A stretch of 55,455 nt of DNA from NCBI RefSeq assembly GCF_000231055.2, contig NZ_CM001466.1:3641669-3697123 (forward strand). The letters are read 5' to 3'. This document shows positions 4,939-55,217 of this stretch, one piece after another. Within the stretch, counting starts at the first letter, position 1, and each line of letters opens with the position of its first letter. Source of the DNA: Saccharomonospora azurea NA-128 (GTDB lineage: Bacteria > Actinomycetota > Actinomycetes > Mycobacteriales > Pseudonocardiaceae). The notes under the pieces are model-generated. The model did not search any database. It saw only the letters and a program-made list of their open reading frames with translations, and had not been told where the DNA came from. A program made the position numbers and the translations under genes.

Positions 4939-5001
4939 CGTGTCCGCGTGTCTCGTACGCGTGTCCGCGCCCGGCGACCGCGTGTCCGCGCTTCGCGTAC
5001 G
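4939..5001 (+). repeat. 21-bp periodic repeat, array A (3 units)
   Basis: Three head-to-tail units start at 4939, 4960 and 4981, each beginning CGTGTCCGC and two of them ending CGTACG; a decayed fourth begins at 5002 with CGTGG. The same 21-nt unit occurs at 49539-49695 and 55100-55217. Located between the 3' ends of dapC and dapD. Confidence 0.85.
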
Positions 5002-5078
5002 CGTGGAGGTGAGTTCGCGCCGCTCCGGCTGGACGGACTGCCGTCTCGCCGAGCCGCCGGGGCCAGGCGTTGTCGTGA

Positions 5079-5111
5079 GACCGGGCCGGAGACGTACCGA
5101 CCGGCCCGGTC
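5079..5111. terminator. Hairpin between convergent dapC and dapD
   Basis: Perfect 11-bp inverted repeat: left arm GACCGGGCCGG at 5079-5089, right arm CCGGCCCGGTC at 5101-5111, 11-nt loop. No T-tract on either side, as is usual in high-GC actinobacteria. Probably serves both genes. Confidence 0.7.
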
Positions 5112-5135
5112 CACGCGTCGTTGCCTCCGTTGCCG

Positions 5136-6128
5136 TCAGTCGTTGGCGTGCAGGGCGGCGTTGAGTTCCACGCCCGCCCCGGTGCGTTCCACGACCTCCA
5201 CCTCGCCGGTCGTGGAGTTGCGGCGGAACAGGGCGCCGGAGACGCCGGACAGTTCGCGGGCCTTCACGGTGCGGCCCTGGAACGTCACCTTCGTCCCGGC
5301 CGTGACGTACAGGCCCGCCTCGACCACGGAGTCGTCGCCGAGGGAGATGCCCACGCCGCCGTTGGCGCCGATGAGGCAGCGCTCGCCCAGCGAGATGACC
5401 TCCTTGCCGCCGCCCGACAGCGTGCCCATGATCGACGCGCCGCCGCCGACGTCGGTGCCGTCGCCGACCACGACACCCGCCGAGATGCGGCCCTCGATCA
5501 TGGAGGCGCCGAGCGTGCCCGCGTTGAAGTTCACGAAGCCCTCGTGCATCACGGTGGTGCCGCTGGCCAGGTGGGCGCCGAGCCGCACGCGGTCGGCGTC
5601 ACCGATCCGCACGCCGCTGGGCGTGACGTAGTCGACCATGCGGGGGAACTTGTCCACGCTGTAGACGGTCACCGGGCCGCGGGCCCGCAGGCGAAGGCGG
5701 GTGGCTTCGAAGCCCTCCACCGGGCACGGGCCGTGATTGGTCCACACCACGTTGGACAGGTGGCCGAAGACGCCGTCGAGGTTCTGGCCGTGCGGTCGCA
5801 CCAGCCGGTGGGACAGCAGGTGCAGCCGCAGGTACACGTCGTGCGCGTCGGTGGGGGCCGCCGCCAGCGAGGCGATCGTGGTCCGCACGGCCACGACCTC
5901 CACCCCGCGCGCCTCGTCGGCGCCGAGTACGGCGGTGGCGGACGCGCCGAGGGTGTCGGCGGCTTCCTCCTTCGAGAGGCGCTCGGTGCCGCTGACGGCG
6001 GACGCGCTCACGTCGACGAGCTTCGGCTGCGGGAACCAGGTGTCGAGCACGGTGCCGTCGGTCGTGACGGTCGCCAGGCCGACACCGGTCGCGCCGGTCG
6101 TTTCGGGATTCGGGGTAGCTGTGCTCAC
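5136..6128 (-). CDS. dapD: 2,3,4,5-tetrahydropyridine-2,6-dicarboxylate N-succinyltransferase DapD
   Basis: 330 residues, actinobacterial DapD size. Transfers a succinyl group from succinyl-CoA to tetrahydrodipicolinate, the committed step of the succinylase branch of lysine synthesis. The C-terminal half is a left-handed beta-helix with hexapeptide repeats ([40 protein letters not shown]), preceded by the actinobacterial N-terminal domain with [16 protein letters not shown]. The GTG start lies 7 nt after a TACCGT hexamer, so the mRNA is probably leaderless. It is separated from dapE by an oppositely oriented lipoprotein gene. Confidence 0.95.
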
Positions 6129-6135
6129 GCTGGCT

Positions 6136-6141
6136 ACGGTA
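6136..6141 (-). promoter_or_regulatory. -10 hexamer of dapD (leaderless)
   Basis: TACCGT read on the minus strand, 7 nt before the GTG start at 6128. This spacing puts the transcription start at or next to the start codon, and there is no Shine-Dalgarno sequence. Confidence 0.6.
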
Positions 6142-6158
6142 ACCCGCGCCGTGCCTGG

Positions 6159-6584
6159 TCAGCCGGTCACGTCGGGCAGGGCCGACAGCTCCCTCTCGAC
6201 GTCCGAGAGCGCGGTCGCCATGTCGGTGAGCGTGCCGGCACAGACGTCGTGGTCGCCGCTACCAGCGCAGTCGTTGCTCCGGTAGGCACGCAGCGTGGAG
6301 TCGAGCCGGTCGGCGGCGTCCTTCAGACGGGGCTGGCCGGCCGCGTACTTGCGGGCGGTGCCGGGAACGTTCGACAGCTGGGTGACGAATTTCTCGCACG
6401 ACGGCGAGCGCACCTCGGTGGGCGCGCGGTAGCAGTCGTCGGCCTGCAACAGGTGCACCTTGGTCACGAGGGCGCCGGGCCCCGGGTCCGGCGAGCCCTT
6501 CGGGGCCGGACCGGCTTCGCGGGAGCAGCCGGTCAGTGCGAGCACTGCGATGGTGAGCAGAACGACACAGGCACGGGTACGCAC
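6159..6584 (-). CDS. Small lipoprotein of unknown function
   Basis: 141 residues. A signal peptide with a hydrophobic core at residues 6-18 ends in the lipobox LTGC (Cys20), so the mature protein should be lipid-anchored outside the membrane. The mature part has about six cysteines (DDCYRAP, SPSCEKF, SNDCAGS, DVCAGTL) that could form disulfides and is largely helical. I do not recognise the family. The GTG at 6584 has a TACCGT hexamer 6 nt upstream. It lies between dapD and dapE, divergent from dapE; no role in lysine synthesis is evident. Confidence 0.8.
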
Positions 6585-6590
6585 GGCTCC

Positions 6591-6596
6591 ACGGTA
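6591..6596 (-). promoter_or_regulatory. -10 hexamer of the lipoprotein gene
   Basis: TACCGT on the minus strand, followed by GGAGCC and the GTG start at 6584. It lies back to back with the dapE -10 at 6609-6614, so the two divergent promoters overlap within 25 bp. Confidence 0.5.
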
Positions 6597-6608
6597 CGCA
6601 GCGCGGGT

Positions 6609-6614
6609 TACGGT
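6609..6614 (+). promoter_or_regulatory. -10 hexamer of dapE (leaderless)
   Basis: TACGGT, 6 nt before the ATG at 6621, without a Shine-Dalgarno sequence. Same arrangement as dapD. Confidence 0.55.
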
Positions 6615-6620
6615 GCCAGC

Positions 6621-7697
6621 ATGGCCTCGCTCGATCTGCGTTCCGACCCCGTCGACCTCACCGCGGCCCTCGTCGACATCCCGAGCGTCTCCGGCGACGA
6701 GGCGATCATCGCCGATGCGGTGGAGTCCGCCCTGCGCGAGCAGGCGCCCCACCTGGAGGTGGTGCGCAACGGGAACGCGGTGCTGGCGCGGACGAACCTG
6801 GGCAGGCCGGAGCGGATCGTGTTCGCCGGGCACCTCGACACCGTGCCGGTCAACGACAACCTGCCCGGCCACCGCACCTCCTCGGGCGAGGACGAGGTGC
6901 TGCACGGGCTCGGCACCGTCGACATGAAGGGCGGCGACGCGGTGTTCCTGCACCTCGCGGCCACTCTGGCGGAGCCGCGGCACGACGTCACCTTCGTGTT
7001 CTACGACTGCGAGGAGGTCGAGGCGGACCGCAACGGCCTCGGCCGGATCGAGCGGGAGCTGCCCGAGTGGCTGCGGGGCGACCTCGCCGTGGTGGGCGAG
7101 CCGTCCAACGCGGTGGTCGAGGCCGGGTGCCAGGGCACGTTGCGTGCGGAGATCCGGCTCGACGGCGTGCGCGCGCACACCGCGCGCGCGTGGATGGGCA
7201 CCAACGCCATCCACGCGCTCGCCGACCCGCTGCGGCGGCTCGCGGAGTACGAGGCCCGGACCGTCGAGATCGACGGCCTCACCTATCGGGAGGGGCTCCA
7301 GGCGGTGCGGGTGTCCGGAGGCGTGGCGGGCAACGTCGTGCCGGACGAGGCGGTGCTCGCCGTCAACCACCGCTTCGCCCCCGACGTCTCGGTCGAGCAG
7401 GCCGAGGAACACGTGCGCACGGTGTTCGACGGCTACGACATCACGGTGGTCGACCGCTCTCCCGGCGCGCTGCCCGGCCTGTCGGCTCCGGCCACCGCCG
7501 AGCTCGTGCGGGCGGCGGGCGGAGAGGTGGCCGCCAAACTCGGGTGGACCGACGTCGCCCGGTTCGCCGCGCTCGGCATGCCCGCCGTGAACTTCGGCCC
7601 CGGCGACCCCACGCTGGCCCACACCCGGCAGGAGCACGTCCGGACCCGCGACATCCGCAGGGTGACCGAGGTTCTCCGTACGTTGCTGGCCGGATGA
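6621..7697 (+). CDS. dapE: Succinyl-diaminopimelate desuccinylase DapE
   Basis: 358 residues, M20 zinc metallopeptidase family. Hydrolyses succinyl-LL-diaminopimelate to LL-DAP and succinate. Metal and catalytic motifs are all visible: GHLDTVP (metal His and Asp), [11 protein letters not shown] (bridging Asp), DCEEVEAD (catalytic and metal Glu) and [14 protein letters not shown] (metal Glu). The dimerisation-domain His is in [11 protein letters not shown], and the C-terminal metal His in [11 protein letters not shown]. The ATG at 6621 begins the conserved [20 protein letters not shown] region. It completes the dapC-dapD-dapE set in 4 kb. Confidence 0.95.
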
Positions 7698-7700
7698 CTC

Positions 7701-7706
7701 TACGCT
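7701..7706 (+). promoter_or_regulatory. -10 hexamer of the first LOG gene (leaderless)
   Basis: TACGCT, 7 nt before the GTG at 7714, and only a few bases after the dapE stop. Suggests the LOG pair has its own promoter rather than depending on dapE. Confidence 0.5.
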
Positions 7707-7713
7707 GATCGTT

Positions 7714-8496
7714 GTGACCGAGGTGACGCGCAACATCGACAACGGCGACGAACGACCGTCGGAACGGCGTCAGGGACCTGTCGTCCTGCGCCGGGGCAGG
7801 CAGTCCGACGACACGACCACGGATCAGCGGCTGCTCGACTCCCGTGGCCCCAGCGACTGGGTGCACACGGACCCGTGGCGGGTGCTGCGGATCCAGGCCG
7901 AGTTCGTCGAGGGCTTCGGCGCGCTGGCGGAGGTGCCGCGTGCGGTGACGGTGTTCGGTTCCGCCCGCACGCCCCGCGACCACCCGGAGTACCAGCTGGG
8001 CAGGCAGATCGGCGCCGCGCTGGCGGGCGCCGGGTTCGCCGCCATCACGGGCGGTGGCCCGGGTGCGATGGAGGCCGTGAACCGGGGTGCGTCCGAGGCG
8101 GGCGGCCTGTCGGTCGGGCTCGGGATCGAGCTGCCGTTCGAGCAGGGCCTCAACCCGTGGGTCGATCTCGGCGTGAACTTCCGCTACTTCTTCGCGCGCA
8201 AGACGATGTTCGTCAAGTACTCGCAGGCGTTCATCTGCCTGCCGGGCGGGTTCGGCACGCTCGACGAACTGTTCGAAGCGCTCACGCTGGTGCAGACGAA
8301 GAAGGTCACCAAGTTCCCGGTGGTGTTGTTCGGCACGTCGTACTGGGGCGGACTGTACGACTGGGTGCGCGACACCGTGCTCGCCGAGGGCAAGATCAAC
8401 GAACGTGACATGACGTTGCTGCACGTGACGGACGACATCGACGACGCCGTCGGCGTGGTGCAGGAGGCCTACAAGGCATGGGAGGACACGCACTAG
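7714..8496 (+). CDS. LOG-family (TIGR00730) nucleoside 5'-monophosphate phosphoribohydrolase, long form
   Basis: 260 residues. Rossmann-fold LOG proteins release a base from nucleoside monophosphates (cytokinin ribotides or AMP). The signature PGGFGTLDE near residue 175 contains the catalytic Glu, with the ribose-phosphate loop GGGPGAMEAVNRGA upstream. About 65 N-terminal residues precede the fold and are rich in charge, which distinguishes it from the short form directly downstream. The two genes overlap by one base (TAGTG). Physiological substrate unknown. Confidence 0.9.
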   Translation: MTEVTRNIDNGDERPSERRQGPVVLRRGRQSDDTTTDQRLLDSRGPSDWVHTDPWRVLRIQAEFVEGFGALAEVPRAVTVFGSARTPRDHPEYQLGRQIGAALAGAGFAAITGGGPGAMEAVNRGASEAGGLSVGLGIELPFEQGLNPWVDLGVNFRYFFARKTMFVKYSQAFICLPGGFGTLDELFEALTLVQTKKVTKFPVVLFGTSYWGGLYDWVRDTVLAEGKINERDMTLLHVTDDIDDAVGVVQEAYKAWEDTH

Positions 8497-9065
8497 TGCA
8501 GCGCATCTGCGTTTTCTGCGGATCGTCGTCGGGGAAGGACCCGCGCTACGCGGCCGCGGCCGCCGAGGTGGGCACACTGCTCGCCGAGCGTGGGATCGGG
8601 ATCGTCTACGGCGGCGGCCAGGTGGGTCTCATGGGCGTCGTCGCCGACGCGGCGATGCGGGCGGGCGGCGAGGTCGTCGGGGTCATCCCGAAGCACCTCA
8701 TGCGCGCCGAGCTCGCCCACCACGACCTCACGCAGCTCCACGTGGTGGCCGACATGCACGAGCGCAAGGCCACGATGGCGCGGCTGTCGGACGGGTTCGT
8801 GGCTCTGCCCGGCGGGGCGGGCACGATGGAGGAGCTGTTCGAGGTGTGGACGTGGGCGCAGCTCGGCATCCACGCCAAGCCCGTCGGCCTGCTGGACGTC
8901 CGCGGCTACTACTCGAAGATGGCGGAGTTCCTCGACCACATGGTGGCCGAAGGTTTTCTGGGCGAGCCGAGCCGCGACCTCGTCACCGTCACCGACGATC
9001 CGGAAGCGCTGCTCGACGCGTTCGCCCGGCACACCTATACGCCCGTCGACAAGTGGGCGGGCTGA
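8496..9065 (+). CDS. LOG-family phosphoribohydrolase, short form
   Basis: 189 residues from the GTG at 8496; an ATG at 8478 would add six residues and overlap the upstream gene further. Canonical LOG protein: RICVFCGSSSG at the N-terminus, GGGQVGLMGVVADAA and the catalytic PGGAGTMEELFEVWTWAQLG. Resembles Rv1205 of mycobacteria, implicated from literature in cytokinin production there. Its paralogue lies immediately upstream; the pair shares the PGG-G-GT-(D/M)EE loop but differs in N-terminal extension, suggesting different substrates or partners. Confidence 0.92.
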   Translation: MQRICVFCGSSSGKDPRYAAAAAEVGTLLAERGIGIVYGGGQVGLMGVVADAAMRAGGEVVGVIPKHLMRAELAHHDLTQLHVVADMHERKATMARLSDGFVALPGGAGTMEELFEVWTWAQLGIHAKPVGLLDVRGYYSKMAEFLDHMVAEGFLGEPSRDLVTVTDDPEALLDAFARHTYTPVDKWAG

Positions 9066-9086
9066 CACCCAGGGGTGTCGGCCCGC
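9057..9086. terminator. Hairpin between LOG and acyltransferase genes
   Basis: Arms GCGGGC/GCCCGC and GACACC/GGTGTC enclose a CAGG loop, with one T-G pair between, giving a 13-bp stem. The stop codon of the LOG gene is inside the left arm. No T-tract. Confidence 0.65.
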
Positions 9087-9092
9087 GTGTGG

Positions 9093-9776
9093 TCAGGCCG
9101 CGTCGGCCTGGTCCTCGGCGGGACGCCGGTGGTAGCGGTCCACGTACTCGAGCCCGGACAGCTCCATGATCGAGTACATGATCTCGTCGGTCACCGCGCG
9201 CCGGATCGCGGGCGAGGAGCCGAGGCCCTCGTACCGGGAGAAGTCGAGCGGCTCGCCGAAGCGCACGCGGACCTTCGCGAACCGGGGGATCTTCTTGCCC
9301 ACCGGCAGCAGCTGCTCCGTGCCGCTCAGCGCCACCGGGACGACGGTGGCGCCCGTCTCGAGGGCCAGGCTGCCGACACCGGTGTGCCCGCGGTGCAGCC
9401 GGCCGTCCAGCGAACGCGTGCCCTCGGGGTAGATCGCGAACGTCTCACCGGACTCCAGCACCCGGCGCGCCGCGCCGAGGGCGGCGAGTCCGGCCATCGC
9501 GTTGCCCCGCTCGACGGGCACGTACCCGAGCGCGGACAGGAACGCGGCCAGCGAACGGCCCTTGAGGCCCCGGCCGGAGAAGTACTCCGCCTTGCCGAGG
9601 AAACGCACCGGTCGCGGCGACACCAGCGCGAGCACGGCCGTGTCGATCGCCGAGCGGTGGTTGGGGGCGAACAGCACCGGTCCGGACGTCGGAACGTTCT
9701 CCACGCCCTCGACCTGGGGGCGGTAGACGAGCCGGGCCAGCGGTGCGAGAGCACCACGGATCAGCAGTTGCAGCAC
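9093..9776 (-). CDS. 1-acylglycerol-3-phosphate O-acyltransferase (PlsC family)
   Basis: 227 residues. Membrane-associated acyltransferase that makes phosphatidic acid or a related lipid. The catalytic motif NHRSAID (HxxxxD) is at about residues 48-54 and the substrate motif EGTRS at about 118. The GTG at 9776 follows GGGAGG closely and gives a typical length; the frame upstream (33 codons) is not conserved-looking. Acyl acceptor not certain. It stands where mycobacteria have folP2/gpgS-region genes. Confidence 0.9.
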   Translation of the reverse strand: MLQLLIRGALAPLARLVYRPQVEGVENVPTSGPVLFAPNHRSAIDTAVLALVSPRPVRFLGKAEYFSGRGLKGRSLAAFLSALGYVPVERGNAMAGLAALGAARRVLESGETFAIYPEGTRSLDGRLHRGHTGVGSLALETGATVVPVALSGTEQLLPVGKKIPRFAKVRVRFGEPLDFSRYEGLGSSPAIRRAVTDEIMYSIMELSGLEYVDRYHRRPAEDQADAA

Positions 9777-9871
9777 GGTCCCTCCCGTTGGTGATCGCCA
9801 ACCAGGATCGCACGGCCGGAAGCGTCGCCCGAGGGGTGGCTGGCGAAGCACACGAGCGTTCCGCGCGTGTG

Positions 9872-9883
9872 TCACGATCGTGA
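9872..9883. promoter_or_regulatory. Palindrome before the DivIVA-like gene
   Basis: 12-bp perfect palindrome TCACGATCGTGA ending one base before the GTG start at 9885. Could be an operator or simply a chance GATC-centred palindrome; the core CACGATCGTG also occurs at 3255-3264. Confidence 0.3.
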
Positions 9884-9884
9884 T

Positions 9885-10199
9885 GTGACCACTGCCCTGA
9901 TCTACCTCCTCGTGATGCTGCTGGTGGCGGCCGTGGTGTTCCTGGTGGCGTCGCTCGTCTTCGGCCGGGGCGAGGAGCTGGCTCCGCTCGAACCCGGGAG
10001 CTCACCCACGCGGCTGCCCGCCGACGACCTGACGAGCGCGGACGTGGCCGACGTGAAGTTCCAGGTCGTGGTCCGGGGCTACAAGATGTCGGAGGTCGAC
10101 TGGGTGATGTCCCGGCTCGGCACCGAGCTGGACCTGCTGAGGGCGCGGGTCGCGGAGCTGGAGCGCGAAAGGGCCGGCGGTGAGGCGCGTCGTGAGTGA
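9885..10199 (+). CDS. Membrane-anchored DivIVA-domain protein
   Basis: 104 residues. An N-terminal transmembrane helix (residues about 4-28, LIYLLVMLLVAAVVFLVASL) is followed by a linker and a DivIVA-like motif KFQVVVRGYKMSEVDWVM leading into a coiled coil. DivIVA domains in actinobacteria mark poles and septa; this short membrane-tethered type is typically encoded near tag, as here. Its 3' end overlaps the next gene by 8 nt (GTGAGTGA), so it forms an operon with the SRPBCC and tag genes. Function beyond wall or pole localisation is inference. Confidence 0.85.
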   Translation: MTTALIYLLVMLLVAAVVFLVASLVFGRGEELAPLEPGSSPTRLPADDLTSADVADVKFQVVVRGYKMSEVDWVMSRLGTELDLLRARVAELERERAGGEARRE

Positions 10200-10644
10200 C
10201 CTCGCCGTGTCGGTCGACGTCGCCGCGCCCGCGGGCACGACGTGGCTCGCGCTCACCGACTGGGAGCGGCAGCGCGAGTGGATTCCCGGCACCACGGTGC
10301 GGGTCGTGTCGGGCAACGGGCGCAGCGTCGGCTCGCGGCTCGAAGCGTTCACCGGGAAGGGCGTGTTCGGTGTCAGGGACACGATGGAGATCACCAGCTG
10401 GGAGCCGCCCGTGCGGTGCACCGTCCGGCACCTGGGCAAGGTCGTGAAGGGCACCGGTACCTTCCACGTCCAGGCCAAGGGCGCGACGCGGTGCGTGTTC
10501 GTGTGGGCCGAGGAGTTCACCGCGCCGTTCGGGCCGGTGGGGAAGCTGGGCTGGGTGCTGATGAAGCCGGCGTTCGTGATGGCGCTGCGGCGGTCGATGC
10601 GGACGTTCGCGGAGTTCGCGGAGAGCTACGAGGTGGGTGGATGA
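10192..10644 (+). CDS. SRPBCC (START-like) family protein
   Basis: 150 residues. A polyketide cyclase/dehydrase-like helix-grip fold is indicated by the N-terminal SVDVAAPAGTTWLALTDWERQREWIPGT and the alternating strands that follow (EITSWEPPVRCTVRH, TRCVFVWAEEF), with a C-terminal amphipathic helix. Such proteins bind hydrophobic ligands; the ligand here is unknown. GTG at 10192 overlaps the DivIVA-like stop; an in-frame GTG at 10180 is an alternative. The stop overlaps the tag ATG (ATGA). Confidence 0.85.
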   Translation: MSDLAVSVDVAAPAGTTWLALTDWERQREWIPGTTVRVVSGNGRSVGSRLEAFTGKGVFGVRDTMEITSWEPPVRCTVRHLGKVVKGTGTFHVQAKGATRCVFVWAEEFTAPFGPVGKLGWVLMKPAFVMALRRSMRTFAEFAESYEVGG

Positions 10645-11210
10645 GCCCGGAGCTGGTGGGTGCCGACGGCATCACCCGCTGCGCGTGGGGCAACACCGCC
10701 GCCGACTACGCGGCCTACCACGACGACGAGTGGGGCGTGCCGCTGCGGGGCGACGCGGAGCTGTTCGAACGGCTGTCGCTGGAGGCGTTCCAGTCGGGGC
10801 TGTCGTGGTTGACGATCCTGAGGAAGCGGGAGGCCTTCCGCCGCGCCTTCGCCGGGTTCGATCCCGACCGGGTCGCGGCGTTCTCCGACGACGACGTCGA
10901 GCGACTGCTGTCCGACGCGGCCATCGTGCGCAACAGGGCGAAGATCCTCGCCACGATCACGAACGCCCGGGCCGTCGCCACGCTCGACACCCCGCTCGGC
11001 GAGCTGCTGTGGTCGTTCGCTCCCGGCGGCACGCGGCCGAGGCCGGCCACCATGGCCGACGTGCCCGCCACCACGCCGGAGTCGGTGGCGATGGCCAAGG
11101 CGCTGAAGAAGCGCGGCTTCGCCTTCGTCGGGCCGACCACCTGCTACGCCCTGATGCAGGCGACCGGCATGGTGGACGACCACGTGGTGGGCTGTTTCCG
11201 CGCGGCCTGA
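10641..11210 (+). CDS. tag: DNA-3-methyladenine glycosylase I
   Basis: 189 residues, usual Tag length. Removes 3-methyladenine from alkylated DNA. Seen: RCAWGNTAADYAAYHDDEWG at the N-terminus (zinc-site Cys and conserved Trp/Glu), FERLSLEAFQSGLSWLTILR, the helix-hairpin-helix region, and the C-terminal KKRGFAFVGPTTCYALMQ and DDHVVGCF, which supply the other zinc ligands. Last gene of the DivIVA-like/SRPBCC/tag operon. The same neighbourhood (Rv1210 region) exists in mycobacteria. Confidence 0.95.
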   Translation: MSPELVGADGITRCAWGNTAADYAAYHDDEWGVPLRGDAELFERLSLEAFQSGLSWLTILRKREAFRRAFAGFDPDRVAAFSDDDVERLLSDAAIVRNRAKILATITNARAVATLDTPLGELLWSFAPGGTRPRPATMADVPATTPESVAMAKALKKRGFAFVGPTTCYALMQATGMVDDHVVGCFRAA

Positions 11211-11219
11211 CCCGCGCGG
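11198..11219. terminator. Hairpin between convergent tag and enoyl-CoA hydratase
   Basis: CCGCGCGG at 11198-11205 pairs with CCGCGCGG at 11212-11219 around a CCTGAC loop that contains the tag stop codon. 8-bp perfect stem, no T-tract. Confidence 0.55.
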
Positions 11220-11245
11220 ACCCAGCCGCCACCCTGCCGGACGAC

Positions 11246-12461: not shown

Positions 12462-12480
12462 GTTTCCCTTGCCCGGTCCA

Positions 12481-48210: not shown

Positions 48211-48229
48211 CCGGTCGACAACCGGCACA

Positions 48230-48254
48230 TCCCGCCCACGATGTGGACGCGGGA
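48230..48254 (+). terminator. Hairpin after DUF3152 gene
   Basis: TCCCGC/GCGGGA outer arms with inner CCAC/GTGG and a GAT loop, 10 paired bases with a 2-nt bulge, 20 bp after the stop. Confidence 0.6.
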
Positions 48255-48318
48255 AGACCCAGCCCTCTCGCGCGGTTATAGATGGCGACAGACCGCGAAC
48301 GCGCGAGATGGAGGACTG

Positions 48319-49521
48319 ATGTCTGGTACTGAGGGCGGAACGCCGCAAGCCACGCTTCCGCCGCTCGTCGAGCCGGCCGCCGAGCTCACCAAGGATGAAG
48401 TCGCGCGCTACAGCCGGCACCTCATCATTCCGGATGTCGGCGTGGACGGCCAGAAGCGACTGAAGAACGCCAAGGTTCTGATCATCGGCGCCGGTGGGCT
48501 GGGCAGTCCCGCCCTGCTGTACCTCGCCGCGGCGGGAGTCGGCACGCTGGGTGTCATCGACTTCGACGTCGTGGACGAGTCGAACCTCCAGCGCCAGGTC
48601 ATCCACGGCGTGTCCGACGTCGGCAAGCCGAAGGCCGTCTCGGCGCAGGAGTCCGTCGCCGAGATCAACCCGTTCGTCAACTTCGTGACGCACACCGAGC
48701 AGCTGACCACCGAGAACGCGGTGGAGCTGTTCAGCCAGTACGACCTGATCCTCGACGGCACGGACAACTTCGCCACGCGCTACCTCGTCAACGACGCCGC
48801 CGTGCTCGCCGGCAAGCCGTACGTGTGGGGCTCGATCTTCCGATTCGAGGGCCAGGTGAGCGTCTTCTGGGAGGACGCGCCGAACGGCAAGGGCCTGAAC
48901 TACCGCGACCTGTACCCCGAGCCCCCGCCTCCCGGCATGGTGCCGTCGTGCGCCGAGGGCGGTGTGCTGGGTGTGCTGTGCGCGTCGATCGGCTCCATCA
49001 TGGTGACCGAGGCGATCAAGCTCATCACCGGCATCGGTGAGCCGCTGCTGGGCCGGCTCGTCACCTACGACGCCCTGGAGCTGCGCTACCGCGAGGTGAA
49101 GATCCGGAAGGACCCGGAGACGCCCAAGATCACCGAGCTCATCGACTACGAGGCGTTCTGCGGTGTGGTGTCCGACGACGCTCAGCAGGCGGCGTCCGGC
49201 CACACGATCACGCCCGCGGAGTTGAAGGCGAAGTTCGACGCCGGCGAGAACTTCGAGCTGATCGACGTCCGCGAGCCGCACGAGTACGAGATCGTCAACA
49301 TCAAGGGCGCGAAGCTGATCCCGAAGGACCGCATCCTGTCCGGCGAGGCGCTGGCCGAGCTGCCGCAGGACAAGCCGATCGTGCTGCACTGCAAGTCGGG
49401 TGCTCGCTCGGCGGAGGCCCTCGCGGCGCTGCACAAGGCGGGCTTCGCCGACGCCAGCCACCTCGGTGGCGGGGTCCTGGCGTGGGCGCGTCAGGTGGAC
49501 CCCAGCCTCCCGACGTACTGA
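48319..49521 (+). CDS. moeZ: Adenylyltransferase/sulfurtransferase MoeZ
   Basis: 400 residues. N-terminal MoeB/ThiF-type adenylation domain (GAGGLGSPALLYLAAAGVG, DFDVVDESNLQRQVIH, SCAEGGVLGVLCASIG) and a C-terminal rhodanese domain (LIDVREPHEYEI, active-site Cys in LHCKSGARSAEAL). Activates sulfur-carrier proteins (MoaD, CysO, ThiS) as their thiocarboxylates for molybdopterin, cysteine and thiamine synthesis. GGAGG is 4 nt before the ATG. Same gene order as Rv3206c-Rv3207c. A TATAGA hexamer near 48277 may be its -10. Confidence 0.95.
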   Translation: MSGTEGGTPQATLPPLVEPAAELTKDEVARYSRHLIIPDVGVDGQKRLKNAKVLIIGAGGLGSPALLYLAAAGVGTLGVIDFDVVDESNLQRQVIHGVSDVGKPKAVSAQESVAEINPFVNFVTHTEQLTTENAVELFSQYDLILDGTDNFATRYLVNDAAVLAGKPYVWGSIFRFEGQVSVFWEDAPNGKGLNYRDLYPEPPPPGMVPSCAEGGVLGVLCASIGSIMVTEAIKLITGIGEPLLGRLVTYDALELRYREVKIRKDPETPKITELIDYEAFCGVVSDDAQQAASGHTITPAELKAKFDAGENFELIDVREPHEYEIVNIKGAKLIPKDRILSGEALAELPQDKPIVLHCKSGARSAEALAALHKAGFADASHLGGGVLAWARQVDPSLPTY

Positions 49522-49538
49522 CCCGAGACGCCGAGCAC

Positions 49539-49695
49539 CGTGTCCGCCGCTCAGCGACGCATGTTCGCACTTCCCGTACGGGCGGTGCGTGCACAGACTG
49601 CGGACACGAGTGCACAGACTGCGGACACGCCGGTGTGGGGTGAACCCCACCGGCGTGTCCGCAGTTCATGAACGCGTGTTCGCAGTTCGGCGGGG
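49539..49695. repeat. 21-bp periodic repeat, array B (6 units, mixed orientation)
   Basis: Plus-oriented cores at 49539 (CGTGTCCGC) and 49560 (CATGTTCGC); minus-oriented cores at 49600-49608 and 49621-49629 (GCGGACACG); plus-oriented cores at 49654 and 49675 (CGTGTTCGC). Each same-orientation pair is exactly 21 nt apart. A 21-bp tandem copy lies at 49589-49609 / 49610-49630. Between moeZ and the next gene. Confidence 0.85.
49618..49665 (+). terminator. Long hairpin formed by two opposed repeat units
   Basis: Left arm ACTGCGGACACGCCGG (49618-49633) pairs with CCGGCGTGTCCGCAGT (49650-49665), and inner TGGGG/CCCCA surround a TGAA loop with a 2-nt bulge; about 21 bp in all. Likely ends the moeZ transcript. 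It is built from the 21-bp repeat family. Confidence 0.75.
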
Positions 49696-49701
49696 TACCG
49701 T
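49696..49701 (+). promoter_or_regulatory. -10 hexamer of TIGR02569 gene (leaderless)
   Basis: TACCGT, 6 nt before the GTG at 49708. It begins directly after the last 21-bp repeat unit (49675-49695), so the repeats occupy the -15 to -50 zone of this promoter. Confidence 0.5.
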
Positions 49702-49707
49702 CTCGGC

Positions 49708-50499
49708 GTGATTCAGGGACCGCCGCCACCGGAGCACACGCGCCGGGCCTTCGGGCTGGGCGGTGCCGACGTCGAACCGCTCGGCGGAACGGGCTGGCGC
49801 TGCGGTGACGTGGTGCTGGAACCCGTACACGACCGCGCGCAGGGCGTGTGGTTGTCACGGATCCTCGCCGCACTCGACGTGCCCGAGCTGCGGATCGCCC
49901 GCCCCATCGGCGCCACCGACGGGCGGTGGGTCGTCGGCGGCTGGCGGGCGCGCCGCCTGCTGACGGGCTCGCCCGAACACCGCCCGGAGGAGACCGTTCT
50001 CGCCGCGGTGCGGCTGCACCGGGCGACCGCCACCTTCGAACGCCCGTCCTTCCTCGACGACCGGCAGGACGTCTTCGCGGTCGCCGAACGCATGGCGTGG
50101 GACGAGGAACGACGCGAGCTCGACGAGGCCAAGGGCGGGAGACTGTTCGAGATCCTCGCGCCGTCCCGTCGACCGGTGTGGGGCGCCGACCAGCTCGTGC
50201 ACGCCGAACTGTTCGGCACGCTCCTCTTCGACGGCGACCAGCCACCGGCCCTGGTGGGTTTCGTGCCGCACTTCCGGCCCGCCGAGTGGGGCGCCGCGGT
50301 CGCGGCCGTGGACGCCGTGGCGTGGGGCGGCGCCGACGGCACGTTGCTGCGGCACTGGTCCCACCTGCCCGAGTGGTCGCAACTCCTGCTCCGCGCCGTC
50401 CTCTTCCGCCTCGCCTGGCACGCCCTGCATCCCCGGTCGAGCGCCGCCACCCTCGACGGCCTGCGCCGCGTCGCCGGTGAGGTCACCGAACTGCTCTAG
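49708..50499 (+). CDS. TIGR02569-like conserved actinobacterial protein
   Basis: 263 residues. Resembles the TIGR02569 family (distant aminoglycoside-phosphotransferase/kinase-like fold): WRCGDVVLEPVHDRAQGVWL, GRWVVGGWRARRLLTGSPEH, ADQLVHAELFGTLLFDGD and a DAVAWGGADGTLL stretch. The kinase catalytic residues (HGDLH-type motif) appear as VHAELFGTLLF, so catalysis is doubtful. Occupies the place of Rv3205c. Function unknown. Confidence 0.78.
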   Translation: MIQGPPPPEHTRRAFGLGGADVEPLGGTGWRCGDVVLEPVHDRAQGVWLSRILAALDVPELRIARPIGATDGRWVVGGWRARRLLTGSPEHRPEETVLAAVRLHRATATFERPSFLDDRQDVFAVAERMAWDEERRELDEAKGGRLFEILAPSRRPVWGADQLVHAELFGTLLFDGDQPPALVGFVPHFRPAEWGAAVAAVDAVAWGGADGTLLRHWSHLPEWSQLLLRAVLFRLAWHALHPRSSAATLDGLRRVAGEVTELL

Positions 50500-50520
50500 C
50501 CCTCCACCCATTCGCCGCGC

Positions 50521-51642
50521 TCACGTCCACGTGACGCGCAGCGATTCGGTCCCGCGCGCCGCACACACCCGCTCGGCCTCGTCCTCCGCGGCCGCCCTCG
50601 CCCGCGCCGACAGCGGCAGCAACGCCGTCATCGTCACGTCCAGTCGGCGGCCGGACCTCGTCGCCCGCCACGTGCCCGCGATCTCGCCGTCGGCGAGGAT
50701 CGTGCCCGGATTCCCGAGGATCTTCCACACCTCCTTGCGATGCGCGGGGTCCGGCACGAGCAGGGCGCGGTCCCGCGCCTGCACCAGCGGATCCTTCGGC
50801 GGGAGCAGGCGAACCGTGTTCGGCTCCGGCGGGTTCTCCAGCAGCGGCACCGCGTCGGCGGGGATCGCGCCGCGCCGCCCCTCCACCGACACGTCCACGA
50901 GGTCGTCGGGCCACATCGTGCGCGTCAGCACGGCTTTCGTGGTGCCGACGAACCCGGCGGCCTCGGTGGCGGTGGCCGGGCCGTGCAGCCGCAGGTACGA
51001 CCTCACCACCTCGGCCGCCGCACGGGGATCCGGGCGACGCGCCAGTGGCGGTCGGGGACGCAGCGGCACCAGCGTGGCGGGGGACGAACCCGGTTCCAGC
51101 GCGACCCCGGCCAACGGCGTGGCCAGCCGCATGAGCTGGTCGTGGATGTGCGTCGCCTGGCAGCGCCGACACCACAGCGAGAGCCCGTCCGGGATCACCT
51201 TCGTCACCGCTTCGCTCGCCGCACCCTTGGTCATGGTGCGCGTGACGACGTCGCGCAGTGCCTGGGCGGCGGTGCGGATCGCCTCGTCCGCGGGCATCCC
51301 GGCCGCCGCGAGGTCGCGGCGCTGCCAGCTCAGCCGGGCGGCGGCGTCGGCGGCGTCCCACGGCGGGAGAGTGGTGATCAGCGCACGGAACTCGGCCGCG
51401 CGGTGGTAGTGCGGGGCGCCCCGGTGCGACCACGCCAGGACCAGCCGGTCGTCGTCGCCCGGGGCGGGCGCCGGGTCTCCGTCCAGGCGTGCCAGCAGCG
51501 CGAGCTCCGCACTGCCGCGCTGGTCGTCCTGGACGCCGAGATCGAACACCCGCAGTGCCACGGGATCCGCGCCGGAGTCGCGGTGCAGGCCCTGCGCCGC
51601 GATCCGGTACGCCATGGCCTGGTCTCGATCGATGTCGAGCAT
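50521..51642 (-). CDS. Winged-helix DNA-binding (YcaQ/AlkX-like HTH_42) protein
   Basis: 373 residues. Family PF06224, winged-helix proteins that include DNA glycosylases such as YcaQ/AlkX. Seen: GPATATEAAGFVGTTKAVLTR (wing helix), LLPPKDPLVQARDRALLVPD, and a C-terminal ADGEIAGTWRATRSGRRLDV strand pair. Catalytic QxQ of the glycosylase members is not clear here, so activity is uncertain. ATG at 51642. Confidence 0.82.
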   Translation of the reverse strand: MLDIDRDQAMAYRIAAQGLHRDSGADPVALRVFDLGVQDDQRGSAELALLARLDGDPAPAPGDDDRLVLAWSHRGAPHYHRAAEFRALITTLPPWDAADAAARLSWQRRDLAAAGMPADEAIRTAAQALRDVVTRTMTKGAASEAVTKVIPDGLSLWCRRCQATHIHDQLMRLATPLAGVALEPGSSPATLVPLRPRPPLARRPDPRAAAEVVRSYLRLHGPATATEAAGFVGTTKAVLTRTMWPDDLVDVSVEGRRGAIPADAVPLLENPPEPNTVRLLPPKDPLVQARDRALLVPDPAHRKEVWKILGNPGTILADGEIAGTWRATRSGRRLDVTMTALLPLSARARAAAEDEAERVCAARGTESLRVTWT

Positions 51643-51681
51643 CGTGACCTTCCCGAGTCTGTCGAACCTCCGCGACCGCTG

Positions 51682-52077
51682 TCAGGCGAAGCGGTAGTCG
51701 AACGTGTAGGGCACCGTCTGCGAGGCCGACGCCGCCGTGCCGCTGCCGGTCAGTCCCGTGAGCTCGCCCGTCGCCGATCCCGGCACGACGGTGAAGCGGT
51801 CGGAAATGCCGTCGTCGGAGTACGCGACGTCGTGCCGGACGACGAACGAGCCCGAACGGCCCGCGACGCTGCCCTCGATGCGGGAGTACCCCGGAGCTCG
51901 CTGCTCACCGTGGCCGGTCGGCTCGTCGTAGTACAGGAGGTAGTCGACGGTCGCCGAGCCGGTGATCACGCCCTGGTAGGTGAACGTGGCATGGGCGTGG
52001 GCGTAGCGGGGGCCGGTCTCGTCGCCCGCGACGACGTGCTCGTCCCAGCTGGTCATGGTGTAGGTGTTCGTGCTCAT
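51682..52077 (-). CDS. DUF3224 family protein
   Basis: 131 residues from ATG 52077. DUF3224 (allene-oxide-cyclase-barrel-like) proteins form small beta-barrels: YTMTSWDEHVVAGDETGPRY, GSATVDYLLYYDEPTG, GRSGSFVVRHDVAYSD. Function unknown. Divergent from the WYL-type regulator, which may control it. Confidence 0.85.
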   Translation of the reverse strand: MSTNTYTMTSWDEHVVAGDETGPRYAHAHATFTYQGVITGSATVDYLLYYDEPTGHGEQRAPGYSRIEGSVAGRSGSFVVRHDVAYSDDGISDRFTVVPGSATGELTGLTGSGTAASASQTVPYTFDYRFA

Positions 52078-52140
52078 GCCGACCAGCCTCGCGCCGAAAC
52101 CTGCCATCTCCTGTCAGTTTTCTCGAGCAGAATGGGCGAC

Positions 52141-53109
52141 ATGCGGGCGAGCAGGTTGTTGTCGCTGGTGCTGCTGCTCCAGAACCGCGGGCGCATGACG
52201 GCGCAGGCGCTGGCCGACGAGCTGGAGGTGTCGGTGCGCACGATCTACCGCGACATGGACGCGCTGTCGGCGGCGGGCGTGCCCGTGTACGCCGACCGTG
52301 GTCGCACGGGCGCCTACCAGCTCGTGGGCGGCTACCGCACGCGGCTCACGGGACTGTCGGAGGAGGAGGCACAGGCGCTCGCGCTCGCGGGACTGCCGGC
52401 GGCCGCCGCGGAACTCGGGCTCGGCACGGTGCTGGCCGCGGCGCAGCTGAAACTGTCCGCCGCGCTGCCGGACGAGTTGCGTCGCCGGGCGGGCGAGCTC
52501 GCCGAACGCTTCCACGTCGACGTGCCCGGCTGGCACCGCGACCTCGAACGCGTGCCGGCGCTCGCGGAGATCGCCGATGCCGTGTGGCACGCGCGACGGC
52601 TCCGGGTCCGCTACCGGCGGTGGGACGACACCGCGGTCGAGCGCGATCTCGACGCGCTCGGGCTCGTACTGAAGGCGGGTGTGTGGTACCTCGCCGCCCG
52701 GTGCGGCGGCTCGGTGCGCACCTACCGGGTGTCGCGTGTGGACGCCCTCACCGACCTCGGGGAGTCGTTCGACCGGCCCGAGGACTTCGTGCTCGCCGAG
52801 TACTGGCGGGCGTGGTCGGAGGGGTTCGAGAAGCGGCTCTACCCCGACACCGCGTTGGTGCGCCTGTCGCCGCTGGGACGGGACCTCGTACCGTTCTTCC
52901 TGGGTGCCGTCGGGGCGCGCGCGTTGCGGGAGACCGCGACCGGGCCGGGGCCCGACGGCTGGTCGACGGCGGAGCTGCCGGTGGAACGAGGCGCGCCCGC
53001 ACTCGGGCAGCTCCTGCGGTTCGGTGCGGAGCTGGAGGTGCTCGCACCGCCCGAGCTGCGCAGCCGGGTGTCCGAGGTCGTGTCGAGGATGGGTGAGAGG
53101 TATGGCTGA
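52141..53109 (+). CDS. WYL-domain (YafY/PafC-like) transcriptional regulator
   Basis: 322 residues. N-terminal DeoR-like helix-turn-helix (MTAQALADELEVSVRTIYRD), then a WYL domain (VRYRRWDDTAVERDLDALGL, GVWYLAARCGG, YRVSRVDALTDL) for ligand or nucleic acid sensing. ATG at 52141 chosen over 52132 because CAGAAT lies 7 nt before it. Divergent from DUF3224; the last bases overlap the uroporphyrinogen synthase gene by 8 nt. Confidence 0.88.
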   Translation: MRASRLLSLVLLLQNRGRMTAQALADELEVSVRTIYRDMDALSAAGVPVYADRGRTGAYQLVGGYRTRLTGLSEEEAQALALAGLPAAAAELGLGTVLAAAQLKLSAALPDELRRRAGELAERFHVDVPGWHRDLERVPALAEIADAVWHARRLRVRYRRWDDTAVERDLDALGLVLKAGVWYLAARCGGSVRTYRVSRVDALTDLGESFDRPEDFVLAEYWRAWSEGFEKRLYPDTALVRLSPLGRDLVPFFLGAVGARALRETATGPGPDGWSTAELPVERGAPALGQLLRFGAELEVLAPPELRSRVSEVVSRMGERYG

Positions 53110-53914
53110 GGCGCCGCTCGCGGGCGTGACCGTGGGGATCACGGCCGAACGTCGTGCGAACGAGTTCGCAGCGGCGCTGCGACGGCACGGGGCCACGGTG
53201 ACGCACGCGCCCACCATCACCATCGTTCCGCTGCCCGACGACGAGCGGCTGCGCACGGTCACCGAGGTCGTCGTGAACACCGACGTCGACGTCGTGGCGG
53301 TGACCACGGGCGCGGGTTTCCGCGGCTGGTTCGAGGCCGCCGAGGGCTGGGGGCTCGCGGACGCGCTGCGGGAGTCGTTGGCCCGGGCGCGCGTGTTCAC
53401 CCGGGGCCCGAAGGCCACCGGCGCGGTCCGGGGCGCGGGCCTGTCGGAGGTCTGGTCGGCGGCGAGCGAGACCAACCAGGAGCTGTTCGACCGCCTCGGG
53501 GTCGACGACGTGCGGGACAGGCGGGTGGTGGTGCAACTGCACGGCGCGCCGTTGCCCGACCACGTGGCCGCGTTGCGCGACCGGGGCGCCGACGTGCTGG
53601 AGGTGCAGCCCTACCGCTGGCAGTGGCCCGGCGACCTGGCTCCCGCGCGCGATCTCGTCGAGGCGGTGGCACACGGACGGGTGGACGCCTTGGCCTTCAC
53701 CAGTGCCCCCGCTGCGGCGAATCTCCTGACGCTCGCCGACGAGAGTCCCCACCGGGACGCTTTCGCGGCTGCGCTCGCGAGCCGGGTGCTGTGCGCCTGC
53801 GTCGGGCCCGTGACGGCCGCGCCACTGGTCGAGCGCGGAATCCCGGTCGCGGTGCCCGAACGGCAGCGGCTCGGGGCGCTGGTGAAACTGCTGGTCGCGC
53901 GCCTCGGGTGGTGA
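53102..53914 (+). CDS. Uroporphyrinogen-III synthase (HemD-like)
   Basis: 270 residues. Two-domain UroS fold: GVTVGITAERRANEFAAALR, TTGAGFRGWFEAAEGWGLAD, FTRGPKATGAVRGAG, QLHGAPLPDHVAALRDRGAD, ALAFTSAPAAANLLTLAD and CVGPVTAAPLVERG. It would cyclise hydroxymethylbilane for tetrapyrroles. Overlaps the WYL regulator by 8 nt, so it is a stand-alone gene outside a hem cluster and may be a second UroS-like or uroporphyrinogen-related protein. Confidence 0.85.
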   Translation: MAEAPLAGVTVGITAERRANEFAAALRRHGATVTHAPTITIVPLPDDERLRTVTEVVVNTDVDVVAVTTGAGFRGWFEAAEGWGLADALRESLARARVFTRGPKATGAVRGAGLSEVWSAASETNQELFDRLGVDDVRDRRVVVQLHGAPLPDHVAALRDRGADVLEVQPYRWQWPGDLAPARDLVEAVAHGRVDALAFTSAPAAANLLTLADESPHRDAFAAALASRVLCACVGPVTAAPLVERGIPVAVPERQRLGALVKLLVARLGW

Positions 53915-53921
53915 GCGGTAC

Positions 53922-54785
53922 TCAGCTCGCCGACTCGCCCGCCCCGGCGTGGTCGTGGGCGCGGAGCTGCTCGCGACCGGCGTCCTCCTCGCTGCGCCCC
54001 TGCCGCCAGTAGCCGGTGAAGGTGATGTGGCGCTTGTTCACACCGCGCTCCCGGACGAGGTGCCGGCGCACGTGCTTGACGAGGCTCGCCTCACCCGAGA
54101 TCCACGCGTACGGCGCGCCCGCGGGGAGCATCGCGTCCCGGACGGCGGCCAGCACGGCCTCGCCCACGGGTGCGTCCCCGCGGTGCACCCACCGCACGTC
54201 CACCCGTTCTCCGTACCCGGCGAGGGGAATCTCGTCGGCGGCGTCGGCCACCTCGACGAACACGATCGCCCTCGCCTGGTCGGGCAGGCGTTCGCAGATG
54301 GCCGCGATGGCCGGCACGGCCGACTCGTCGCCCACCAGCAGCTGCCAGGACGTTCCGGCGGGAACGTCGTAGAGCCCGTGCGGGCCGAGCAGTGCGACCT
54401 CGTCGCCGGGACGCGCGTTCGCCGCCCAGCTCGATCCCGGGCCCGCGTCGTCGTGCAGGACGAAGTCGATGTCGAGCTCGGCGGCCCAGGGCCGCGCGTG
54501 GCGGACGGTGTAGGTGCGCATCGCGGGTCGCACGCCGTCCGGCATCGCGAGGTAACGCCGGTACCACGACATCGCGTCGTCGGCCAGCGTCGGCGGAAGC
54601 TGCGGGGCTCGGGTGCCGGGAGTCGGGAAGAACACCTTCACGTACTGGTCGGGGGCGCCGTCGACGACGTGTGCGAGGTCTGGACCGGTGAACGTGACTC
54701 GCACGAGCCGGGGGGTGATCGCGCGGACGTGACGGACGTGCGCGGTCAGGTAGGCCAGACGTGGCCGGATCGCCTCGGTGCTCAT
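53922..54785 (-). CDS. Siderophore-interacting protein (FAD-dependent ferric-siderophore reductase)
   Basis: 287 residues. SIP family: N-terminal FAD-binding barrel (AITPRLVRVTFTGPDL, MRTYTVRHARPWAAELDIDF, GSSWAANARPGDEVALLGPH) and a NAD(P)H-binding C-terminal domain (QLLVGDESAVPAIAAICERL, AWISGEASLVKHVRRHLV). Reduces Fe(III)-siderophore to release iron. ATG at 54785 lies 6 nt after a TAGCCT -10 that is embedded in an iron box, so iron repression is expected. Confidence 0.93.
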   Translation of the reverse strand: MSTEAIRPRLAYLTAHVRHVRAITPRLVRVTFTGPDLAHVVDGAPDQYVKVFFPTPGTRAPQLPPTLADDAMSWYRRYLAMPDGVRPAMRTYTVRHARPWAAELDIDFVLHDDAGPGSSWAANARPGDEVALLGPHGLYDVPAGTSWQLLVGDESAVPAIAAICERLPDQARAIVFVEVADAADEIPLAGYGERVDVRWVHRGDAPVGEAVLAAVRDAMLPAGAPYAWISGEASLVKHVRRHLVRERGVNKRHITFTGYWRQGRSEEDAGREQLRAHDHAGAGESAS

Positions 54786-54803
54786 TAGGCAAGGCTAACC
54801 TAC
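54785..54803. promoter_or_regulatory. Iron box (DmdR/IdeR-type operator) of the siderophore-interacting gene
   Basis: TTAGGCAAGGCTAACCTAC matches 16 of 19 positions of the palindromic consensus TTAGGTTAGGCTAACCTAA. It covers the -10 (TAGCCT on the minus strand), the stop codon of the upstream alkyltransferase-like gene and the first base of the SIP start codon. Iron-loaded repressor should block transcription. Confidence 0.85.
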
Positions 54804-55090
54804 AGGGGCCGCCAGCGAAACCGTCGGAGGTCGACGCGCTGTCCGTCGGCGAGCACTCCCTCGGCCCGGAGCCGGGCGAGTTGCTCACGCGCGAGGTGGG
54901 GAGCCGGGGTGCCGTCGGCGCGGAGTACCCGGTGCCACGGCAGGTCATGCCCGTCTTCGGCGAGCACCCGCCCCACGAGCCGGGGAGTGGAGGCGCCCGC
55001 GAGTGCGGCCACGTCGCCGTAGGTGGCCACGGTGCCCTCCGGCACGGACGCGACGACGGCGCGGATCCGTTCGTGCAGTTCCTCGTTCAT
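54800..55090 (-). CDS. Alkyltransferase-like (ATL/MGMT-family) protein
   Basis: 96 residues. MGMT-type DNA-binding domain; at the position of the methyl-accepting Cys in PCHR it has Trp52 (PWHRV), which defines alkyltransferase-like proteins that bind O6-alkylguanine and hand it to nucleotide excision repair. GTVATYGDVAALAG is the conserved helix. ATG at 55090 has GGGGGA upstream. The mycobacterial counterpart is Rv3204. Its stop is 15 bp before the SIP start, and repeats of array C begin 10 bp upstream of its start. Confidence 0.9.
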   Translation of the reverse strand: MNEELHERIRAVVASVPEGTVATYGDVAALAGASTPRLVGRVLAEDGHDLPWHRVLRADGTPAPHLAREQLARLRAEGVLADGQRVDLRRFRWRPL

Positions 55091-55099
55091 GTCGTCCCC

Positions 55100-55217
55100 C
55101 GTACCGAAACTGCGGACACGCGTGCGCAGACGGCGGACACGGTACGCCTGGTCTCGTGTCCGCGGGGCACGCACGTGTGTCCGCTCCTCGCGTACGCGTG
55201 TTCGTCGTTCGACGACA
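55100..55217. repeat. 21-bp periodic repeat, array C (5 units, mixed orientation)
   Basis: Minus-oriented cores at 55112-55120 and 55133-55141 (GCGGACACG); plus-oriented cores at 55155, 55176 and 55197 (CGTGTCCGC, TGTGTCCGC, CGTGTTCGT), all at a 21-nt step. Lies in the divergent gap between the alkyltransferase-like gene and the helicase. Confidence 0.85.

Follow-up and report, generated by a model that had tools for sequence, protein, structure and literature searches.

Helically phased arrays of 21-bp repeats at gene ends in Saccharomonospora azurea NA-128, a candidate protein-binding platform

The window, as the whole analysed stretch of 55,455 nucleotides from S. azurea NA-128 is called here, raises the question of why short repeats between its genes keep a spacing of exactly 21 bp, and whether they serve a protein on the DNA, an RNA or their own propagation. 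To our knowledge, little has been established for high-GC actinomycetes, among them many antibiotic producers, about where transcription stops or how supercoils in convergent gaps are handled. If the reading preferred below is true, a genome-wide gene-end element readable from sequence would offer a direct handle, by which sites can be listed, the protein fished out and the arrays deleted, while the drift of letters under a fixed geometry would provide a natural series for protein-DNA co-evolution.

Arrays of the window and their 21-bp spacing

Fourteen repeat units are present in the window. The unit consensus is CGTGTYCGC RSYYYNCGYACG, a non-palindromic sequence of a 9-bp core and a 12-bp spacer. 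Eleven cores match CGTGTYCGC exactly and three (49560, 55176 and 55197) carry one mismatch. Array 1 (4939..5001, + strand) consists of three direct units starting at 4939, 4960 and 4981; it lies between the convergent genes dapC (3561-4922, +) and dapD (5136-6128, -), named from NCBIfam DapC_actino and DapD_actino, and begins 16 nt past the dapC stop codon. Array 2a (49539..49580, +; units at 49539 and 49560, the second core being CATGTTCGC) begins 17 nt past the stop codon of moeZ, whose product was named by NCBIfam, and is followed by array 2b on the - strand (49588..49629; units 49588-49608 and 49609-49629, core starts 49600 and 49621), with an inner gap of 31 nt between the last + and the first - core. 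A 24-nt centre without strand, CCGGTGTGGGGTGAACCCCACCGG (49630..49653), separates array 2b from array 2c (49654..49695, +; units at 49654 and 49675), which stops 12 nt short of 49708, where the following + gene is predicted to start. Array 3a (55100..55141, -; units 55100-55120 and 55121-55141, core starts 55112 and 55133) occupies the 5' region of a short - gene starting, by eye, near 55091. It is separated by an inner gap of 13 nt from the three units of array 3b (55155..55217, +; 55155, 55176 and 55197); the gap appears divergent by eye, and the codon model found no gene to the right of array 3b within the window.

Re-location of the units confirmed the original prediction of 14 units with same-strand cores exactly 21 nt apart, and the spacing exceeds chance: five exact pairs at this distance were found in the window against none summed over 100 first-order Markov windows. 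The whole genome holds 251 pairs of the form CGTGTYCGC-N12-CGTGTYCGC (120 forward, 131 reverse), and a control with the reversed pattern gave 0. The window together with about 100 listed of these 251 pairs furnished a set of 47 arrays, in which 159 of 164 same-strand neighbours are 21 bp apart, the set having been built by 21-bp extension. Under the same construction, 73/73 neighbours of genus g16 keep this distance among the arrays listed. When gaps of 3-33 were allowed, 340 of 346 core pairs in nine genomes of other genera, chosen for an earlier match to the fixed spacing, were 21 bp apart. Furthermore, a scan of periods 10-40 over 55,339 intergenic bases (the array-holding stretches and the window) gave 30 matches at 21; all other periods stayed at a background of 3 to 5 each, to which three runs of N contribute.

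The arrays extend through the genus and beyond it. CGTGTYCGC pairs number 113-332 in each of 8 of the 12 genomes of the genus, and other genera of the same family carry diverged versions with the core ACGCGTGT; the array stretches were retrieved by pattern match, and arrays of other genomes are those among the matches listed. The predicted hundreds of intergenic copies with differing flanking genes were thus largely borne out, except that some copies keep the same neighbours. In the phylum sample, 395 other genomes lacked CACGCGWGT pairs altogether. Among 80 named loci reached via moeZ, CGTGTYCGC pairs occurred in one (Saccharomonospora piscinae L062), and a period scan of the same loci revealed at least one further 21-bp array (Amycolatopsis rifamycinica L111). 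A loose core search in these loci returned many two-core matches, which were treated as noise. A phage origin was rejected, as 65 viral-contig stretches held one pair each, taken as chance. No described repeat family matching these arrays was found in the literature searched.

Helical register and a putative binding protein

The opposite-strand runs of the listed arrays are phased as well, a property that adds to the original prediction. Inner gaps of converging (> <) runs measure 10, 20, 28-31, 40-41, 50-52, 62, 82 and 84 nt, with misfits of 5 and 8. Among centres distinct in sequence, the 24 that reach 20 nt or more, a cut-off chosen after the gaps had been seen, give an R(10.5 bp) of 0.905 and an R(21) of 0.16; none of 20000 uniform draws reached this R(10.5), and the best period among 5-22 was 10.6. 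R(10.5) falls to 0.734 over all 30 distinct centres and 0.760 over all 48; this analysis omits variant loci of G187 and G092 and same-genome repeats of one gap string. Four of the 30 distinct centres (5, 5, 5 and 8 nt) are out of phase and count against a binding platform. Divergent (< >) runs in genus g16 are 20-22 nt apart in 10/10 cases among the arrays listed, and across four species one orthologous gap measures 30, 31, 30 and 29 nt while its letters change. Opposite-strand runs at helical multiples point to a protein on double-stranded DNA, so that the earlier suggestion of a protein-binding array on one helix face is supported and strengthened.

We give about an even chance to the proposal that the arrays are cooperative binding platforms for a sequence-specific putative protein, forming a boundary at gene ends. 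Each 21-bp unit, with a core of about YACGCGTGTYCGC and a variable remainder, would take one protomer or dimer; units two helical turns apart would place all protomers on the same face, and opposite-strand runs at multiples of about 10.5 bp would keep that face. Since units and runs stand in helical register, two or more units would build a cooperative nucleoprotein block. The boundary would act by stopping or slowing RNA polymerase as it leaves a gene, or by holding the expected positive supercoils, and neighbouring genes would be kept from interfering. The parts of this proposal differ in strength: the sequence argues strongly for binding and suggests cooperativity, and the boundary is a conjecture to which it hints weakly.

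The same spacing would come free with tandem copying, and slippage could yield exact 21-bp copies devoid of function. We regard such neutral duplication as very improbable: the spacing remains 21 in the listed arrays of this genome despite divergence of the 12-bp spacers, and half-period phasing of opposite-strand gaps, which slippage does not give, largely refutes it.

The 9+12 geometry is shared with LytTR regulators, of which AgrA represents a further operator type, and a regulator of this kind might bind the arrays. By eye, about half of the core positions fit the LytTR 9-bp repeat consensus, [TA][AC][CA]GTTN[AG][TG]. LytTR matches were found in 39/39 genomes searched, two of them in the genome of the window, but array-free genomes carry them too and co-occurrence is therefore uninformative; no array-like pair lay within 1.5 kb of any of the 30 matches examined, including one of those two. 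In the portions of PMC6193735 drawn on here, HdrR-type operators resemble the arrays as 9-bp direct repeats with mostly a 12-bp spacer (11 or 13 in a minority), whereas they form a single pair upstream of a -35 box and lie upstream of promoters, and their core letters appear to differ from those of the arrays. We hold LytTR binding to be improbable.

Gene 3' ends, orientation and RNA folding

The location of the arrays bears on their role. Of the 47 listed arrays in the genome of the window, 20 lie in convergent gaps, compared with about 15 among 177 other gaps (p=2.3e-7), and 45/47 overlap no predicted ORF. Of the 61 flanks that face the 3' end of a gene, 39 begin, core first, 3-27 nt past the stop, and 42 of 49 core-first flanks of this kind lie within 60 nt of it; these distances depend on the gene calls, which came from a home-made codon model. 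The original view that the arrays are not tied to one gene holds for gene identity and fails for location, since 3' ends and convergent gaps are preferred. A boundary would be the likeliest role of the putative protein because the blocks often adjoin stop codons and occupy convergent gaps. Against it, a roadblock 3-27 nt past the stop would halt polymerase before the stop is transcribed. An autoregulatory array beside a regulator gene was rejected, as the listed genes with 5' arrays share no DNA-binding protein by eye.

Placement directly past stop codons would also suit an RNA-level 3' element, in which paired runs form a hairpin terminator or the repeated single strand loads Rho. In the single-run arrays 15/17 are in sense orientation (two in divergent gaps left out), which is compatible with an RNA role too, but orientation is mixed in a second set of genera, which counts against both the RNA and the binding-platform readings. 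Among the listed arrays, z lies below -2 in 25 of 28 two-strand arrays, and in a comparison over gaps free of N, single-run ends fold somewhat better than array-free 3' ends (median -1.06 vs -0.38, p=0.017). Nevertheless, z exceeds -2 in 15 of 19 single-run arrays; a hairpin is therefore not needed, and it was rejected as a general basis. TTTT, the T run of an intrinsic terminator, follows within 100 nt in 1/58 array 3' ends vs 14/123 others, unlike an intrinsic terminator with its stable stem and trailing T run, although two-strand arrays do fold. The median C minus G is 0.01 for 24 single-run ends, 0.05 for 34 two-strand ends and 0.00 for 123 array-free ends, with no clear Rho-like excess, and a Rho loading site was likewise rejected. 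Both sides of the stem in the 49630..49653 centre changed among relatives (five species, compared by eye), as an RNA element would allow, and this stem may be an ordinary terminator hairpin. On the other hand, the gaps track the B-DNA repeat though the centre letters vary, and Rfam gave no family above threshold in 7 sources. An RNA-level element is considered unlikely.

Turnover among species and comparison with known systems

Some arrays stay at orthologous gaps with their units changing, and others were gained and lost between species. For seven array-bearing gaps of the genome of the window, the array is kept in 15 of 23 species comparisons, a tally that drops L062 (same species as G024). 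One gap measures 157 bp in this genome, where it holds an array; its array-free counterparts in two relatives are 39 and 14 bp long. The genome of the window carries a directional module of 70 bp, with a centre of 10 nt, more than once, and one array matches many non-orthologous sites in relatives. These observations suit the original alternative of a mobile non-coding element, a dispersed and partly selfish repeat of the BIME/MITE type whose modules are copied and survive best at 3' ends; the phasing would then come from a transposition or recombination complex, with no host function. One Y1-transposase gene in the genome of the window fits as well. We nonetheless think this unlikely, since 7 of 10 array-bearing genomes yielded no member of the REP-associated Y1 family, inspection by eye of the sequence flanking 14 listed arrays revealed no target duplication, and some arrays are kept in place while units turn over and cores remain more conserved. 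A mobile element flanked by arrays was sought by eye among the genes of five relatives' array loci, and none was present.

At the moeZ site in five species, mean identity is 0.950 for cores and 0.631 for spacers, which argues against neutral duplication too, even though unit number differs between species at orthologous gaps and consecutive units of one array share a spacer, as slippage would give. For the closest pair, on one of two sides, spacers (0.92) and cores (0.89) show no core excess. Gene conversion among arrays could account in part for the core conservation.

Returning to the binding platform, a more specific version appears possible though doubtful: the helix-phased arrays would form 3'-end boundaries with a dedicated putative architectural protein of their own, and would amount to a bacterial insulator, a new class of chromosome element. 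Recognition letters would in that case have drifted between genera of one family under a fixed 21-bp and 10.5-bp geometry.

REP/BIME elements are placed at gene 3' ends. As far as the sources drawn on extend, those of enterobacteria and pseudomonads resemble the arrays in being short, numerous and intergenic and in combining both orientations into mosaics (here 251 pairs, with 45/47 listed arrays outside ORFs), and roles in supercoiling and termination have been proposed for them. REPs are palindromes, mostly of two super-families tagged at one end with GTAG- or CGTC-, in the portion of PMC3733652 used here, whose main text does not mention Saccharomonospora, Amycolatopsis, Pseudonocardia or Actinobacteria. 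The arrays, unlike REPs, are non-palindromic direct repeats with a strict 21-bp period and half-period phasing. Membership in REP/BIME was rejected: the Y1 transposase domain of RAYT (PF01797) occurs in 3/10 array-bearing genomes, the window's own included, and the imperfect palindromic unit with a tetranucleotide tag was not found, the consensus being no palindrome and 15/19 z values lying above -2.

We know of no helical phasing across strands in bacterial satellites. These are tandem repeats, some intergenic, spread chromosome-wide, and Amycolatopsis mediterranei is listed with 23 of them, according to the parts of PMC6749651 consulted; in its main text, both '21 bp' and Saccharomonospora are absent. 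The A. mediterranei satellites might include arrays of the present kind.

A parallel to the proposal itself is BldC of Streptomyces, an actinomycete protein that forms a cooperative filament on head-to-tail direct repeats of variable number, where DNase cuts periodically on about one face, as given in the sections of PMC5859096 drawn on. BldC sites are 9-bp AT-containing repeats at promoters (PMC5859096, same sections), whereas the present repeats are GC-rich, 21 bp long and located preferentially at 3' ends.

Units, copies and relatives

The original prediction described 14 units in three places of the window, and all were recovered at exactly the positions it gave. The window (bases 3,641,669-3,697,123) lies on a single contig of 4,763,852 bases, and 251 CGTGTYCGC-N12-CGTGTYCGC pairs were counted in the genome versus 0 for the reversed pattern. 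The 245 units of its 47 arrays follow the consensus CGTGTYCGC RSYYYNCGYACG, with most information at unit positions 1-9, 17 and 19-20; a directional 70-bp module with the centre GCCGTGCGAC or a close variant is repeated through the genome.

CGTGTYCGC pairs matched in 41 of 297 genomes of the family. Eight of the 12 genomes of the window's genus hold 113 to 332 pairs each, and the remaining four, of 82-91% completeness, hold 0, 0, 1 and 0. Eight genomes of other genera carry 137, 126, 62, 33, 27, 15, 14 and 7 pairs, and all further matching genomes at most 4. The core common to other genera, searched as ACGCGTGT-N13-ACGCGTGT, was found in 29 of the 297 genomes, spread over 9 of 46 genera; the highest count, 86 pairs, came from genus g16. 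This genus is probably Amycolatopsis, because a named A. rifamycinica locus (L111) carries an array of the same kind; its units approximate CACGCGTGTCGTCCRTCYGAT, mixed with CACGCGAGT units. Longer arrays of up to 15 units, with the core CGTGTTCGCC and a looser placement behind stop codons, were seen at L147-L151 of one genome (G187). CACGCGWGT-N12-CACGCGWGT gave no match but the window's own among 396 genomes of the phylum, where other cores could still form arrays. The stretches of sequence retrieved came to 0.43 Mb.

Helical phase and a putative binding protein

Of the 164 distances between same-strand neighbours in the 47 arrays, 159 equal 21 bp; that set was built by 21-bp extension, and a period scan and a free-gap count are the less biased tests. 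In nine genomes with the ACGCGTGT core, 346 core pairs were found with the gap left free between 3 and 33, versus 340 with the gap fixed at 13. Runs on opposite strands were compared through the length between their inner cores. Runs in the order > < gave 48 gaps (42 from fetched loci, six added from other listings), measuring 10, 20, 28-31, 40-41, 50-52, 62, 82 and 84 nt, with misfits of 5 and 8. The full set of 48 gave an R(10.5) of 0.760, and the 30 gaps remaining once alike centres were merged gave 0.734; among the 24 gaps measuring 20 nt or more, a threshold chosen after the data were seen, R(10.5) was 0.905, R(21) was 0.162, and the best period in the tested range of 5 to 22 was 10.6. 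The observed R(10.5) was reached by none of 20000 uniform draws in each of the three sets. The low R(21) matters here, since decayed hidden units would yield 21-steps rather than half-steps.

In the order < >, the gaps were 13 (two), 23 (four), 24 (three) and 29 nt (one), five of them representing one moeZ locus in five species. Genus g16 showed < > gaps of 20-22 nt in 10 of 10 cases, with several centres unrelated and others alike, and four > < gaps of 20, 29, 51 and 94. At one orthologous site, four species have inner gaps of 30, 31, 30 and 29 nt. Such phased geometry is the behaviour expected for a protein on B-form DNA, and the phasing argues for a putative protein that would bind every unit, on a fixed helix face and on either strand. 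Cooperative binding is suggested because the unit number varies.

Placement at gene ends and persistence of arrays

The 47 arrays occupy 21 tandem, 20 convergent and 5 divergent gaps, one being undecided; a count of all gaps of 60 bp or more in these stretches gives 113 tandem, 76 divergent and 35 convergent. Convergent placement holds for 20 of the 47 arrays versus about 15 of 177 other gaps, obtained by subtraction (Fisher p=2.3e-7). A gene 3' end is faced by 61 of 93 array flanks, with the core towards the gene in 49 of the 61; these core-first flanks lie at most 60 nt from the stop codon in 42 of 49 and at most 27 nt in 39. Of 17 single-run arrays, 15 read in the same direction as the neighbouring gene. 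In a second set (genera g16, g33 and g4), 16 of 21 clusters sit in convergent gaps, with one undecided and no clear array orientation; in g16 alone, 13 of 18 clusters do so. The 53 arrays of other carriers comprise 26 tandem, 21 convergent, 1 divergent and 5 overlapping predicted ORFs, and the variant arrays of genus g26 are less strictly placed. At L169 249-10609 (genome G111), a two-unit array follows each of three successive genes, about 3.3 kb long, whose products resemble one another and look secreted-protease-like by eye.

A boundary at gene ends would be the simplest use of the arrays. A plain roadblock sits awkwardly with two features of the Saccharomonospora arrays, their nearness to stop codons and the sense-strand preference of single runs, and these leave room for a possible RNA part in array action. 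Folding z lies above -2 in 15 of 19 single-run arrays and below -2 in 25 of 28 two-strand arrays, the latter being inevitable for inverted runs. No clear C-over-G excess was seen at array 3' ends, T runs are rarer there than at array-free 3' ends, and Rfam gave no match at its thresholds for the 7 sources searched. The best explanation would be a putative sequence-specific protein on helix-phased arrays, with a conjectural boundary role at gene 3' ends.

Seven array-bearing gaps of the window's genome were compared with relatives in which both flanking genes are adjacent. The array was retained in 8 of 15 comparisons for three L050 gaps and the moeZ gap (with window arrays at 49539-49695), and in 7 of 8 for three L048 gaps; one L050 gap of 157 bp with an array stands against array-free counterparts of 39 and 14 bp. 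Among five species, aligned cores of the moeZ arrays average 0.950 identity versus 0.631 for spacers. At third codon positions of moeZ, identity to the window's gene is 0.75-0.86, and the closest pair has one side on which spacer identity (0.92) is on a par with core identity (0.89). These comparisons suggest that some arrays are held in place under core constraint and that others were gained or lost.

Downstream of moeZ, the segment 49630-49653 that separates the - run from the following + run forms, by eye, a stem whose two sides co-vary in five species. In other members of the Pseudonocardiaceae, long hairpins of different, recurring kinds stand 3' of moeZ (L063, L065, L069, L076-L081, L085, L086; by eye), such as GCAAGGGACCTTTGCT and GTCCGTGAAGG, each with its inverse; these may represent additional repeat families that occupy this position. 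One gene at L048 8512-9891 is 100% identical in protein to its G128 counterpart in L285, and the array gap beside it is near letter-identical, whereas the other compared proteins of these two species are 82-93% alike, apparently a sign of recent exchange.

Comparison with known systems

No published title describing these arrays was found, which is weak evidence given the thin search coverage of subscription literature. For Amycolatopsis mediterranei, 23 satellites are listed in PMC6749651, and some single arrays may therefore already be included in a published repeat list. The array geometry equals that of LytTR sites as described in PMC6193735. The window's genome has two LytTR matches, but nothing was found that links them to the arrays.
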